Source: Cellulosimicrobium sp. CUA-896
GTDB taxonomy: Bacteria > Actinomycetota > Actinomycetes > Actinomycetales > Cellulomonadaceae
NCBI RefSeq assembly: GCF_001942335.1
Contig: NZ_MKKH01000009.1
Coordinates: 1 to 64,000 of the forward strand
Reading direction: 5' to 3'
DNA length: 64,000 nucleotides
Within the stretch, counting starts at the first letter, position 1. Each line of letters opens with the position of its first letter. A program made the translations under genes and the position numbers. The notes beneath the pieces are model-generated. The model saw only the letters and a list, made by a program, of their open reading frames with translations. It did no database searches and was not told the DNA's origin. Of the stretch, positions 15,564-58,606 are shown piece after piece.

Positions 15564-16379
15564 ATGCCGACGCCCCCGGGGCAGCCTCCCGCCCTCCGCA
15601 CGGCGGCGTTCTTCGACGTCGACAACACGATCATCCGCGGCGCGTCGTCGTTCCACCTCGCACGGGCGCTGCACCAGCGCGAGTTCTTCTCCACGGGCGA
15701 CCTCGTGCGGTTCGCCGCGCACCAGGCCCGCTACCTCCTCCTCGGTGAGAGCCGGCGCCAGATCGACCGCATCCGCTCGCGCGCCCTCTCCCTCATCGCC
15801 GGGCGCTCCGTCGCGGAGATCACGTCCATCGGCGAGGAGGTCTACGACACCGTCCTGTCGCTGCGCATCTACCCCGGCACCCAGCGCCTGCTCGACGAGC
15901 ACATCGCCGCCGGCCACGACGTGTGGCTCGTCTCCGCGACCCCCGTCGAGATCGGCGACCTCATCGCGCGCCGGCTCGGCGCGACCGGCGCCCTCGGCAC
16001 CGTGGCCGAGCACGAGGACGGCTTCTACACCGGCCGGCTCGTCGGCGACCTCATGCACGGGCGTGCGAAGGCCGCCGCGGTGAGCGCGCTCGCGGAGCGC
16101 GACGGCATCGACCTCGAGGCGTCCTACGCCTACGGCGACTCGCTCAACGACGTCGCGATGATGGACGAGGTCGGGCACCCGTGCCCCATCAACCCCGACG
16201 CGCGGCTGCGCCGGCACGCCCAGGACGTCGGCTGGCCCATCCGCGAGTTCCGTGGACGCCGGCGGCGCGTGACGCGCAGCAGCGTGCGCACCGCGAGCTG
16301 GGCGGGGGCCGTCTGGGCGGGGGCGCTCGTCCTGCGGTCCGTGCGCCGGGCGGTCGACCGGCGGTTCGCGCGGCTCTGA
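15564..16379 (+). CDS. HAD-IB family phosphatase (SerB-like)
   Basis: A 271-residue haloacid-dehalogenase hydrolase. Motif I is FFDVDNTIIRGAS (residues 13-25), motif II is VWLVSATPVEIGDL, motif III includes GRAKAAAV, and motif IV is YAYGDSLNDVAMMDEVG. The subclass resembles phosphoserine phosphatase-like proteins found in many actinobacteria, whose substrate is not settled. A basic C-terminal tail (FRGRRRRVTRSS) precedes one hydrophobic segment (AGAVWAGALVLRSV) that could sit at the membrane. The structured repeat follows 12 bases after the stop. Confidence 0.88.
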   Translation: MPTPPGQPPALRTAAFFDVDNTIIRGASSFHLARALHQREFFSTGDLVRFAAHQARYLLLGESRRQIDRIRSRALSLIAGRSVAEITSIGEEVYDTVLSLRIYPGTQRLLDEHIAAGHDVWLVSATPVEIGDLIARRLGATGALGTVAEHEDGFYTGRLVGDLMHGRAKAAAVSALAERDGIDLEASYAYGDSLNDVAMMDEVGHPCPINPDARLRRHAQDVGWPIREFRGRRRRVTRSSVRTASWAGAVWAGALVLRSVRRAVDRRFARL

Positions 16380-16391
16380 GACTCACCGGAC

Positions 16392-16496
16392 GGGTGGGGT
16401 GCGGGATGTTCGCCCGACCTACCATCCGCGCCGCTCGTGCCTCGCGGCGCTCCCGCCAGACCCGCCACGGTCGGGCGAACGTCCCGCACCCCACCC
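16392..16496. repeat. Structured inverted repeat, copy 1
   Basis: Outer arms of 28 bases (16392-16419 and 16469-16496) are complementary throughout, with one G-U pair in RNA. The 49-nt loop contains 8 nt (16420-16427), an inner 7-bp hairpin (16428-16434 with 16444-16450, 9-nt loop), and 18 unpaired bases (16451-16468) reading TCCCGCCAGACCCGCCAC. A second copy at 57795-57895 has the same geometry, a different outer-stem sequence and the identical 18-base segment. It lies between the convergent HAD and basic mini-protein genes. It could also act as a bidirectional terminator, but its loop is far larger and more conserved than a terminator needs. Confidence 0.8.
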
Positions 16497-16602
16497 CTCG
16501 CGCACCGCGCCGCCACCTCGAGGCCGGGGACGCAGCGAGCCCGGTCACCCCTCGTCGGGGTGCCGGGCTCGGCGGTCGGCGCGCGCGTCGTGGCGCGCGA
16601 CG

Positions 16603-16701
16603 TCACTTCTTGTTGCGGCGCTGGTGACGCGTCTTGCGCAGCAGCTTGCGGTGCTTCTTCTTGGCCATGCGCTTGCGGCGCTTCTTGATGACGGAGCCCA
16701 T
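16603..16701 (-). CDS. AURKAIP1/COX24-domain basic mini-protein (bS22-like)
   Basis: A 32-residue, strongly basic protein: MGSVIKKRRKRMAKKKHRKL followed by LRKTRHQRRNKK. This matches the AURKAIP1/COX24 domain proteins found throughout actinobacteria, the mycobacterial member of which was identified as an extra ribosomal subunit protein (bS22). An A/T-richer leader of about 150 bases lies upstream, consistent with strong expression of a ribosome-associated protein. Confidence 0.92.
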   Translation of the reverse strand: MGSVIKKRRKRMAKKKHRKLLRKTRHQRRNKK

Positions 16702-24706: not shown

Positions 24707-24764
24707 GTCGCGAGGTAGAACCCGCGGTCGCGAGGTAGGACCCGGCGGGTTCTACCTCGCGACC
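24707..24764 (-). repeat. Leader with two competing hairpin arms
   Basis: The segment 24747-24764 can pair either with 24726-24743 (18 bp, one G-U, 3-nt loop) or with 24707-24723 (17 bp, perfect). The two left arms are near-identical direct repeats built on TCGCGAGGTAGRACCC. It lies between the upstream GH43 gene stop and the start of the next GH43 gene, so in the transcript the alternative hairpins stand about 30 bases before the start codon. Either a terminator or an attenuator-like element would fit. Confidence 0.55.
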
Positions 24765-29811: not shown

Positions 29812-30000
29812 GGATCGCTCAGGAGGGAACAGGGCACGGCCCCGACCGATCAGGAACGAACGGCTGCTCGGTCACGGTGAAAACTCGCGAACGCGCTGAC
29901 GCCGCCTCGTGGCCCGTCGGACCAGCCGCGAGGAAAGACCCAGGTGGATCCGGGAGGGGGCCGGGAAGGACCGCGACGTGCGGTACGACCAGGCCTGCCC

Positions 30001-30041
30001 GCGAGGTGGAGCCCCGGCCCCGGGCCGGGGCTCCACCTCGC
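30001..30041 (-). terminator. Long perfect palindrome after the GH51 gene
   Basis: The 20-base arms 30001-30020 and 30022-30041 are perfectly complementary around one central base. It lies 18 bases downstream of the GH51 stop and should act as its terminator. The outer part (GCGAGGTGGAGCCCC) resembles the GCGAGGTAGAACCC arms at 24707-24764. Confidence 0.7.
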
Positions 30042-30058
30042 CGCCCCCTGGCGAACCG

Positions 30059-56231: not shown

Positions 56232-57748
56232 ATGGCCGACTACGTCCTCGCCATCGACCAGGGCACGACCAGCTCCCGTGCCATCGTCTTCAACCACTCC
56301 GGGGAGATCGTCTCCACCGGCCAGCTCGAGCACGACCAGATCTTCCCGCGGGCGGGCTGGGTCGAGCACAACCCCGAGCAGATCTGGAACAACGTGCGCG
56401 AGGTCGTCGGGCTCGCCCTGACGCGGGGGAACCTCACGCACGAGGACATCGCCGCCGTCGGCATCACCAACCAGCGCGAGACCGCGGTCGTGTGGGACCG
56501 GACCACGGGCAAGCCGGTCTACAACGCGATCGTCTGGCAGGACACGCGCACCCAGAAGATCGTCGAGGAGCTCGGCGGCTCCGAGGGCGCGGAGAAGTAC
56601 AAGTCGATCGTGGGCCTGCCGCTCGCCACCTACTTCTCCGGGCCGAAGATCAAGTGGATCCTCGACAACGTCGAGGGCGCACGGGAGAAGGCGGAGAAGG
56701 GCGACCTGCTCTTCGGCAACACCGACACCTGGGTGCTGTGGAACATGACCGGCGGCACCGAGGGCGGCGTCCACGTCACCGACGTCACCAACGCCTCGCG
56801 CACCATGCTCATGGACCTCGACACGCTGTCGTGGCGCGAGGACATCGCCTCCGACATGGGCATCCCCATGTCGATGCTGCCCGAGATCCGCTCCTCGTCC
56901 GAGGTGTACGGCAAGGGCCGCCAGCGCGGCATGGTTCCCGGCGTGCCGATCGCCGGCATCCTCGGCGACCAGCAGGCCGCCACCTTCGGGCAGGCGTGCT
57001 TCGAGGTCGCCAGGCCAAGAACACGTACGGCACCGGCAACTTCCTCCTGCTCAACACCGGCACGGAGAAGGTCATGAGCAAGAACGGCCTGCTCACGACG
57101 GTCGCCTACAAGATCGGCGACGCGCCGCAGGTCTACGCGCTCGAGGGCTCGATCGCGGTCACCGGCTCGCTCGTGCAGTGGCTGCGCGACAACCTGGGCA
57201 TGTTCGAGGACGCCCCCGACGTCGAGTGGCTCGCCCGCAAGGTCGAGGACAACGGCGGAGCGTACTTCGTCCCCGCGTTCTCCGGCCTCTTCGCGCCGTA
57301 CTGGCGGCCCGACGCGCGCGGCGCGCTCGTCGGCCTCACGCGGTACGTGACCCGCAACCACATCGCGCGCGCCGCGCTCGAGGCGACGGCGTACCAGAGC
57401 CGCGAGGTCGTCGACGCCATGAACGCCGACTCGGGCGTCGACCTCACCGAGCTGCGCGTCGACGGCGGCATGGTCGCCAACGAGCTGCTCATGCAGTTCC
57501 AGGCCGACCAGCTCGGCGTCGACGTCGTGCGGCCCAAGGTCGCCGAGACGACGGCGCTCGGTGCCGCCTACGCGGCCGGCATCGCCGTCGGGTTCTGGAA
57601 GGGCGAGGAGGACGTCGTCGCGAACTGGGCCGAGGACAAGCGGTGGACGCCGTCGATGGACTCCGGCGAGCGCGACCGGCTCTACCGGAACTGGAAGAAG
57701 GCCGTGACGAAGACGATGGACTGGGTGGACGAGGACGTCGAGGTGTAG
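56232..57748 (+). CDS. glpK: Glycerol kinase
   Basis: FGGY kinase converting glycerol to glycerol 3-phosphate. Exactly 505 residues once a base near 57010 is restored (QACFEV then [20 protein letters not shown]). Landmarks: [82 protein letters not shown], and [21 protein letters not shown] hairpin terminator and then copy 2 of the structured repeat follow. Confidence 0.95.
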
Positions 57749-57794: not shown

Positions 57795-57895
57795 GGAGGG
57801 GGTGGGGTGGTGCCGCCGGTCTTCCCTCCGCGCGCTCGTCCCTCGCGCGCTCCCGCCAGACCCGCCACGACCGGCGGCACCACCCCACCCCCTCC
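57795..57895. repeat. Structured inverted repeat, copy 2
   Basis: Outer arms of 27 bases (57795-57821 and 57869-57895) are perfectly complementary and differ in sequence from copy 1. Inside are 8 nt (57822-57829), an inner 6-bp hairpin (57830-57835 with 57845-57850, 9-nt loop TCGTCCCTC), and the 18-base segment TCCCGCCAGACCCGCCAC (57851-57868), identical to copy 1. It lies between glpK and the PPOX-like gene, both rightward. Copy 1 is at 16392-16496. Confidence 0.8.
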
Positions 57896-58096
57896 TTGCG
57901 TGTCACCTTCTCGCGGCACGACGGCGGGTGGTGGCGCGACCTCCTCGTCGCGCCGGAGGAGGGCGACGGCGGTCCGCGGCCCGGTCCGCCTCGTCGCCGT
58001 CCTGGGCGAGGACCGCGGTCGGCGGGCGGGGCGGCCCGGACCTGCCTAGCGTCGGAGGTGGTCGCGGTCCCGCGGCCCACGAAGACGGGAGACGCC

Positions 58097-58606
58097 ATGA
58101 CCGACACGCACCACGAGCAGCCGCACGCCGGCGCGGACGAGGTCGCCAAGGTCCGGGAGCTCGTGAAGGACGAGCGGATCGCGATGCTCACGACCGTCGC
58201 CGAGGACGGGAGCCTCGTCAGCCGGCCCATGGGCGTGCAGGCCGTCGACTTCGACGGCGACCTGTGGTTCTTCGCCGCGGAGGACTCGCACAAGGTGGCA
58301 GAGATCGCGCACGACTCCGCGGCGAACGCCGCGTTCTCCGGGTCGAGCTCGTGGGTGTCGCTGTCCGGGAGCGCGAGCGTGGTCCGCGACCGCGCGAAGA
58401 TCCGCGAGCTCTGGAACGCCGTCGCCGACGCGTGGTTCCCCGACGGCCCCGACACCCCAGGCGTCGTCCTCATCCGCCTGCACGCCGACACGGCGGAGTA
58501 CTGGGACTCCCCCGGCGGACGCGTCGCCACCCTCTTCCGGCTCGTGACGACGAAGGTCACGGGCAAGCCGTACGAGGGCGGGGAGAACGAGACCGTCCGG
58601 CTCTGA
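58097..58606 (+). CDS. Pyridoxamine 5'-phosphate oxidase-like stress protein
   Basis: A 169-residue split-barrel flavin/F420-fold protein of the general stress protein 26 type. The barrel shows VRELVKDERIAMLTTVAEDG, SLVSRPMGVQAVDFDGDLWF, AAEDSHKVAEIAHDSAANAA, and ELWNAVADAWFPDGPDTPGV. The ATG at 58097 follows a GGGAGA ribosome site. Such proteins bind FMN, FAD or F420, and the substrate is generally unknown. Confidence 0.88.
   Translation: MTDTHHEQPHAGADEVAKVRELVKDERIAMLTTVAEDGSLVSRPMGVQAVDFDGDLWFFAAEDSHKVAEIAHDSAANAAFSGSSSWVSLSGSASVVRDRAKIRELWNAVADAWFPDGPDTPGVVLIRLHADTAEYWDSPGGRVATLFRLVTTKVTGKPYEGGENETVRL

Follow-up and report, generated by a model that had tools for sequence, protein, structure and literature searches.

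A previously undescribed family of extragenic hairpin elements with a conserved apical module in Cellulosimicrobium and other actinobacteria

Introduction

According to the main text of PMC3733652, REPs are small extragenic palindromes of 20-40 bp that often occur in tens of copies, are unevenly distributed between species and carry a family-specific stem of 5-13 bp with a GTAG or CGTC tag at its foot. They are hypothesised to be miniature transposons, and a role in termination or mRNA stability is hypothesised as well; the word actinobacteria is absent from that main text. Mobile DNA can also be aimed at extragenic palindromes, as insertion sequences that carry a transposase gene target REP palindromes (PMC1525189).

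Here we describe a family of extragenic hairpin elements whose apical module is discrete and conserved, starting from two copies in a 64,000-nt stretch of Cellulosimicrobium sp. CUA-896 (contig NZ_MKKH01000009.1, positions 1 to 64,000; the window). The family resembles the REPs of the GTAG and CGTC superfamilies and the REPtrons in being small, extragenic, palindromic, present in many copies and uneven between species, whereas its unit is ~100 nt long with a free stem and a conserved tip and REP stems define their families; the module also leaves no room for a transposase gene of the kind carried by the REP-targeting insertion sequences. The layout is the opposite of that of REPs and MITEs, since the tip is conserved and the stem drifts.

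MITEs are non-autonomous, repeated and short and can fold, and their arms are conserved terminal repeats. The element is likewise repeated, short and foldable, but its arms differ between copies with compensation and conserved terminal inverted repeats were not found. Intrinsic terminators of high-GC bacteria are long GC hairpins at gene ends in both orientations, which matches the element in position and in the GC hairpin, whereas here the tip is conserved and structured. Integron attC sites have conserved core sites at the stem feet and are used by the integron integrase; in our case conservation lies at the tip.

Results

Two copies in the window

The original prediction had described at 16392-16496 a 28-bp outer stem enclosing 8 nt, a 7-bp inner hairpin with a 9-nt loop and an 18-nt strand, and this fold was recovered in full, with an additional 2-bp pairing placed by the folding program in the 18-nt strand. 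A 125-nt stretch around copy 1 folds at -83.8 kcal/mol, whereas shuffled sequences average -52.65 (z = -8.70), and none of 200 shuffles reaches so low an energy. The parts of copy 1 and its neighbours are:

15564..16379, plus strand: HAD-family hydrolase gene upstream of copy 1 (PF12710, E 2.9e-31)
16392..16419, plus strand: outer stem 5' arm, 28 bp, locus-specific sequence (fold, alignment)
16420..16427, plus strand: conserved 8-nt strand TACCATCC (conserved alignment columns)
16428..16434, plus strand: inner stem 5' arm, 7 bp, variable, compensated (fold, alignment, covariation)
16435..16443, plus strand: conserved 9-nt loop TCGTGCCTC, fifth base free (alignment)
16444..16450, plus strand: inner stem 3' arm (fold, alignment, covariation)
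16451..16468, plus strand: conserved 18-nt strand TCCCGCCAGACCCGCCAC (exact recurrence, alignment)
16469..16496, plus strand: outer stem 3' arm (fold)
16537..16570: plain terminator-like hairpin, separate, between copy 1 and the 32-aa gene (sequence, orthologous spans)
16603..16701, minus strand: 32-aa COX24_C-domain gene converging on copy 1 (PF08213, E 4.1e-8), presumably ribosomal protein bS22

The stop codon of the hydrolase gene ends 12 nt before the stem of copy 1, and the plain hairpin at 16537..16570 is also found in relatives that lack copy 1. Exact matches of TCCCGCCAGACCCGCCAC in the window are two, at 16451-16468 and 57851-57868, where 0.44 matches would be expected even with up to three mismatches. 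The layout had been said to recur in the same order and spacing with a different outer stem; copy 2 does have a different outer stem, but its inner stem measures 6 bp and not 7:

56996..57748, plus strand: FGGY carbohydrate kinase gene upstream of copy 2, C-terminal part as called (PF02782, E 3e-50)
57797-57892: whole span of copy 2 (alignment, covariance-model search)
57798..57821, plus strand: outer stem 5' arm, 24 model positions (alignment, covariance-model search)
57822..57868, plus strand: apical module (TCCCGCCAGACCCGCCAC match, alignment, covariance-model search), with the 8-nt strand at 57822-57829, the inner hairpin at 57830-57850 and the 18-nt strand at 57851-57868
57869..57892, plus strand: outer stem 3' arm (alignment, covariance-model search)
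58058..58606, plus strand: pyridoxamine 5'-phosphate oxidase-like gene downstream of copy 2 (PF16242, E 2.6e-57)

Architecture and covariation

The conserved part of the family is a ~50-nt apical module made of an 8-nt strand, a short hairpin with the loop TCGTNCCTC and an 18-nt strand, which reads on the plus strand from 5' to 3' as C-TACCATCC-(inner stem)-TCGTNCCTC-(inner stem)-TCCCGCCAGRCCCGCCAC-G. The inner stem has 4-7 bp in one copy set and differs in sequence between copies, and the outer stem, whose sequence is free between copies, has a median of ~29 positions, 24 of which are taken up in the covariance model.

In an alignment of 40 of the ~45 copies of the own genome (the remainder falls outside the stricter pattern), 82.7% of the outer-stem cells are paired, 28 of 31 stem pairs are changed on both sides, and the covariation score reaches 0.523 compared with 0.146 after shuffling and 0.08-0.15 with partners slid. 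Scored on 54 matches that lie outside the genus, covariation amounts to 0.780 (0.170 shuffled), in an alignment that leans towards the model because it was fitted to it; two of the five measures in this test lie barely above shuffling (29 vs 27.4 pairs changed on both sides, 98 vs 92.6 pair types). The claim that conservation resides in the loop segments and in pairing rather than in stem sequence is supported within and outside the genus. In the genus g76 the inner hairpin is replaced by another one while CCATCCG and CTCCCGCCAGRCCC are kept.

By eye, an extra internal loop TC/TTC can be seen in the outer stem (as in GCTCGGGC / GCCCTTCGC) at five loci (L007, L009, L029, L189, L123), and this subfamily is common to Cellulosimicrobium and Actinomyces.

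Copy number and distribution

Searching relatives with a covariance model, as had been proposed, placed the core far beyond two sites, with flanking arms that still pair. The own genome holds ~45 copies: a DNA search gave 43 rows, and the covariance model gave 47 rows at E<=1, of which 44 remain at E<=1.4e-8, 43 of them spanning the full model, and the other three are two weak rows and the reverse strand of a listed copy. All 16 other genomes of the genus are positive, with at least 12-71 copies each. In the order, the own genome included, copies occur in 34 of 396 genomes, 16 of 110 genera and six families, with doubtful weak rows at L403 and L413, which are without most of the conserved strands, and at L401 and L402, which are without part of them. 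At class level 9 of 394 genomes are positive, six of them outside the order, and two of these six are doubtful by their letters (G530, locus L423; G635, locus L425).

Copy numbers at E<=0.1 are 89 in C. marinum, 41 in Luteimicrobium album, 27 in C. terreum, 15 in L. xylanilyticum, 14 in L. subarcticum, 14 in the record named Sphaerisporangium cinnabarinum ATCC 31213, 6 in Arsenicicoccus bolidensis and 1-4 in four Actinomyces records; Luteimicrobium, Actinomyces and Arsenicicoccus are the other named hosts among the matches listed. The module is patchy across actinobacteria, and where species have it in common its loops and its pairing are intact. Near-identical "master" copies lie at 20 loci in several genomes of the genus, and within the C. 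cellulans group a single stem type has numerous near-identical copies, which often lie amid inverted 22-mer arrays. In G620, which belongs to another order, the strands beside the inner stem are changed so that GCCC now faces GGGC, with GCCAGRCCC kept.

Several arrangements accompany these copies. The altered-core copies of G620 (L420, L427) come in same-strand pairs ~140-210 nt apart from start to start, and inverted copy pairs ~100-580 nt apart, like REP dimers, are seen in G000 (C4, C10, C35) and in C. marinum (G069; C7, C8, C9, C13). The genus has a second repeat family of 22-mers of the type GAGGTAGARCCGTGGTYGCGC, direct on one side and inverted on the other of many gaps (arrays at L071-L090 and L327-L344), and this family also takes the form of plain palindromes in the window, at 24726-24764 and 29999-30043. 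In Marseille-Q4280 (L185, L308) the 3' half of the element lies in tandem repeats (CCAGACCCGCCACGACCCGCGACGACTC and on). Two C. marinum loci (L272, L305) have a ~55-60-nt insert with the consensus CCTCCTRCGTTCGCAAGCTCACTCCGGASGCTCCCTCG at the same point of the 18-nt strand, perhaps a nested element, which is found in no further fetched locus except L242, which covers the same place as L272.

Position relative to genes

The hairpins that carry the module at their tips are long, rich in GC and unrelated in sequence, and most of them stand at gene ends. Among 125 copies of the own genome and the fetched records, 43 lie in tandem gaps along the genes, 45 in convergent gaps, 29 in tandem gaps in the opposite orientation and 8 in divergent gaps, and the 37 copies of distant genomes are distributed as 9, 20, 6 and 2 (20 convergent), respectively; these counts come from a simple and crude codon-usage gene finder and are not independent, as copies are partly orthologous or recent duplicates and L189 enters both tandem counts. 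Left out were 26 of 160 and 9 of 47 copies inside called genes as well as 9 and 1 copies with one neighbour missing. By the same gene finder 14 of the 45 gaps in the window are divergent. Behind a plus-strand gene, 24 of 29 distant-genome copies begin 4-60 nt after its stop codon. From the gap types it follows that the element occupies terminator positions in both orientations.

A GC hairpin at the end of a gene, the hallmark of an intrinsic terminator, is therefore present, and the earlier statement that the structure does not fit a terminator has to be corrected: the outer stem is terminator-like, stands at gene ends and often follows stop codons closely, and at orthologous sites there can be a plain hairpin that shares the stem, or its lower part, but is without the module. 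Plain hairpins with arms of 12-20 bp are also common in the window (17; 7 in gaps behind a gene, 3 in divergent gaps and 7 inside genes).

Presence, absence and retention at orthologous sites

Polymorphism, suggested as a check between strains, was found between genomes: copies are present or absent at orthologous sites. Copy 1 is absent in 13 of the 14 relatives with a readable gap, including the nearest one (G003), with two further genomes unreadable; G005 has a different copy in this gap. Copy 2 occurs in four of the 16 relatives (G003, G015, G013, G008), with compensated stem changes. At the same site G012 and G016 read GGAGGGGGTGGGGTG(A or G)TGTCGCC-AC-GGCGACAC and on, which is the outer stem with two or three changes, in which AC replaces the module and four closing pairs; the module thus forms a discrete unit at the tip of a hairpin that resembles a terminator. 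In G009 the site is shortened at the tip, and G002 and G011 show plain hairpins that share the lower stem. At locus L020 the stem GAGGGTGGGC, which carries the module in G000, forms a plain hairpin in G003. On the tree the copy-2 site needs three changes, of which the starred branches force two; half of the inner branches are weak, and gain and loss are not polarised.

Of 55 orthologous regions at 13 further loci, 27 have a copy by pattern, and the covariance model finds the same 27 and a weak row (E 3e-4) in L271. At least three of the 27 differ in orientation or in placement (L002 and L021 in C. marinum, L021 in G003), and at L014 all five relatives have a copy.

Over 24 comparisons at 10 loci (20 of the 27 regions with a copy and four at copy 2), the flanks of orthologues are 66% and 62% identical, both outer arms 88% and the inner arms 87% and 86%, and identity rises to 91% in the 8-nt strand, 94% in the loop and 97% in the 18-nt strand; the module values are upper bounds because the part-finding pattern itself demands many module letters. 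Seven regions (L268, L272, L283, L300, L305, L308, L321) were left out as inverted or otherwise placed, as having an insert or another 5' arm, or as not put in the set. Inner stems are swapped whole between orthologues, one locus having for instance GCGACC/GGTCGC, GCGCCGC/GCGGCGC and GCGGTGC/GCACCGC. In the compared copies, all of which still fit the pattern, the module is more similar than its flanks, more than passive insertion would keep, which counts against a mobile element, and it is kept either by selection or by repeated conversion.

Strand asymmetry and element ends

Isolated outer-stem mismatches, read on the plus strand, comprise 30 A.C, 9 G.T and 39 of other types (distinct contexts, n=78), and the excess of A.C over G.T has a two-sided binomial p of 0.001. 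The alignment from outside the genus gives 23 A.C, 9 G.T and 24 others, with a few copies common to both sets. Since an A.C mismatch reads as G.T (G.U) on the opposite strand, it seems to be the minus strand on which pairing matters. In every gap type with four or more such cells the excess points the same way, and it therefore does not simply follow the mRNA strand. Strand-specific mutation may underlie it, but the plus-strand flanks are richer in T than in A, the opposite of what this predicts. The inner stem is free of asymmetry (A.C 6, G.T 5) and half of the isolated outer mismatches (39/78) are of other types, both of which count against mobility. The selected fold may be that of the minus strand, as single-stranded DNA or RNA, and the 18-nt segment may be the complement of the acting form. 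For a double-stranded cruciform symmetric mismatches would be expected.

Outside the stem, in representative copies whose stem starts near the core (87 and 86 of 93 in the two flank analyses), the motif TCRCC is enriched on both sides in one orientation relative to mononucleotide shuffles: TCGCC occurs 36 times on the right (9.3 shuffled) and 16 times on the left (6.8), and TCACC 21 times on the right (1.8) and 10 times on the left (1.3). The reverse complements are less enriched, though GGCGA occurs 8 times on the right against 2.6. On the right TCRCC clusters 9-13 nt from the stem, and within 32 nt it is found on the right in 52 of 86 copies, on the left in 27 and on both sides in 16. It may be the true end or a cleavage site of the element. 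A target-site duplication is not proven, which also counts against a mobile element: the two flanks share a 7-mer in 20 of 86 copies, against 14.7 after permutation, and in a single case, copy 1, CACCG flanks the element on either side and is found once at the corresponding empty site of G003.

Searches for known families and enzymes

The statement that no named family has this layout holds for Rfam, with no match above the gathering threshold in the window or at E<=1 in 16300-16600. The Y1 transposase (PF01797) is found in 0 of 17 genomes of the genus, with 5 of 14 control genomes positive, and a reverse transcriptase (PF00078) in only 3 of 17, the own genome (83% complete) not among them; both results count against a mobile element, and the reverse transcriptase is too rare to be its enzyme. 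The 69-nt stretch 16412-16480 has no match in plasmids or phages at E<=0.01, and a gapped pattern has none in viral contigs; one viral contig retrieved by a looser pattern was rejected as chance, as neither its inner segment nor its flanks can be read as stems.

Across the 1.74 Mb that were fetched (counted with duplicates), a left half lies upstream of 222 right halves and is missing from six (five full copies with a changed left half and one partial, L113), and 148 left halves have a partner and two do not (one copy with an insert, one cut by a contig end). There is no split or longer form of the element in the fetched loci, a weak test because these were mostly fetched for holding a whole copy. 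A minus-strand G-run pattern occurs in 154 of 154 copies, where it is largely built into the search pattern, and in 45 of 54 alignment rows from outside the genus; a minus-strand G-quadruplex was rejected, as it appears in the minimum-energy fold of only 1 of 154 copies. By titles and the beginnings of abstracts, open-licence PMC papers yielded no description of the element, which makes this a weak absence, and papers of the same collection that matched words of the module sequence seem unrelated by title.

Discussion

Taken together, our data are best explained by a REP-like, non-autonomous mobile hairpin module that lies in terminator-like hairpins and is also retained at old sites, a reading to which we assign a probability of about one half. 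In its mechanistic form, a putative recombinase or transposase would recognise the folded single strand (the minus strand with its G-rich loops) and place the module in the hairpins of transcription terminators. There it would do little harm, and the host would keep the hairpin as a putative terminator or 3'-end protector; the module might be lost again by deletion of the hairpin tip. The element works like a REP, yet it is not a REP by definition: the flank motif is TCRCC in place of the GTAG or CGTC tag, the long stem is of free sequence, and the RAYT/Y1 transposase of GTAG-type REPs is missing from all 17 genomes of the genus. Of the original prediction, a selected RNA or single-stranded DNA structure or a mobile palindrome with differing arms, the compensated stems and the polymorphic copies stand, while the outer stem has turned out to be terminator-like.

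The main rival is a structured RNA, a minority view to which we concede real but limited plausibility. In this case a minus-strand transcript with the G-rich loops GUGGCGGGYCUGGCGGGA, GAGGNACGA and GGAUGGUA would act at mRNA 3' ends or as a small RNA by binding a protein or ligand, and the copies would form a post-transcriptional regulon spread by conversion and transfer. Covariation in both stems, loops kept at orthologous sites, the G.U-type tolerance on one strand of the outer stem and the copy in all five relatives at L014 fit well into such a concept. Against it, the orientation to transcription is inconsistent (43 vs 29 in tandem gaps, 9 vs 6 in distant genomes), which leaves the minus strand of many copies antisense to the genes on both sides, and the asymmetry is also seen where the neighbours read only the plus strand (+E+; A.C 10, G.T 4). 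Rfam contains no match, and neither a promoter nor a U-run for a separate RNA has been established.

A more specific proposal, which we consider possible but less likely than not, is an element that homes to the apex: a folded module of ~50-60 nt would on its own enter and leave the tips of terminator hairpins. It would be recognised as a single-stranded structure of the minus strand by an enzyme other than a Y1 transposase or a reverse transcriptase, and the arms would come from the host site, leaving only the tip as the element.

Improbable by comparison are ordinary long terminators, in which termination selection and template-switch correction between the arms would keep the pairing and the module would be a passive old insertion. 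The gene-end position and the abundance of plain hairpins in the window agree with this, but a passive insert would not keep 97% identity in the 18 nt beside flanks of 62-66% (in pattern-selected copies), nor would it keep its loops across families while the inner stem is replaced with compensation. Chance likeness of two GC-rich hairpins, conceivable in DNA of high G+C with many inverted repeats, can practically be dismissed in view of the fold energy (z = -8.70), the recurrence of TCCCGCCAGACCCGCCAC, the ~45 copies and the model matches in other genera.

For the mobile module in terminator-like hairpins, the comparison with REPs remains instructive: REPs are defined by their stems, and the present family keeps the tip and lets the stem drift. 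The family offers many natural compensated variants per genome together with a strand asymmetry to test, as well as sites where otherwise similar hairpins either have the module or cleanly lack it. This makes two questions directly testable, namely what in actinobacteria recognises the tip of a hairpin and whether terminators can serve mobile DNA as landing sites.
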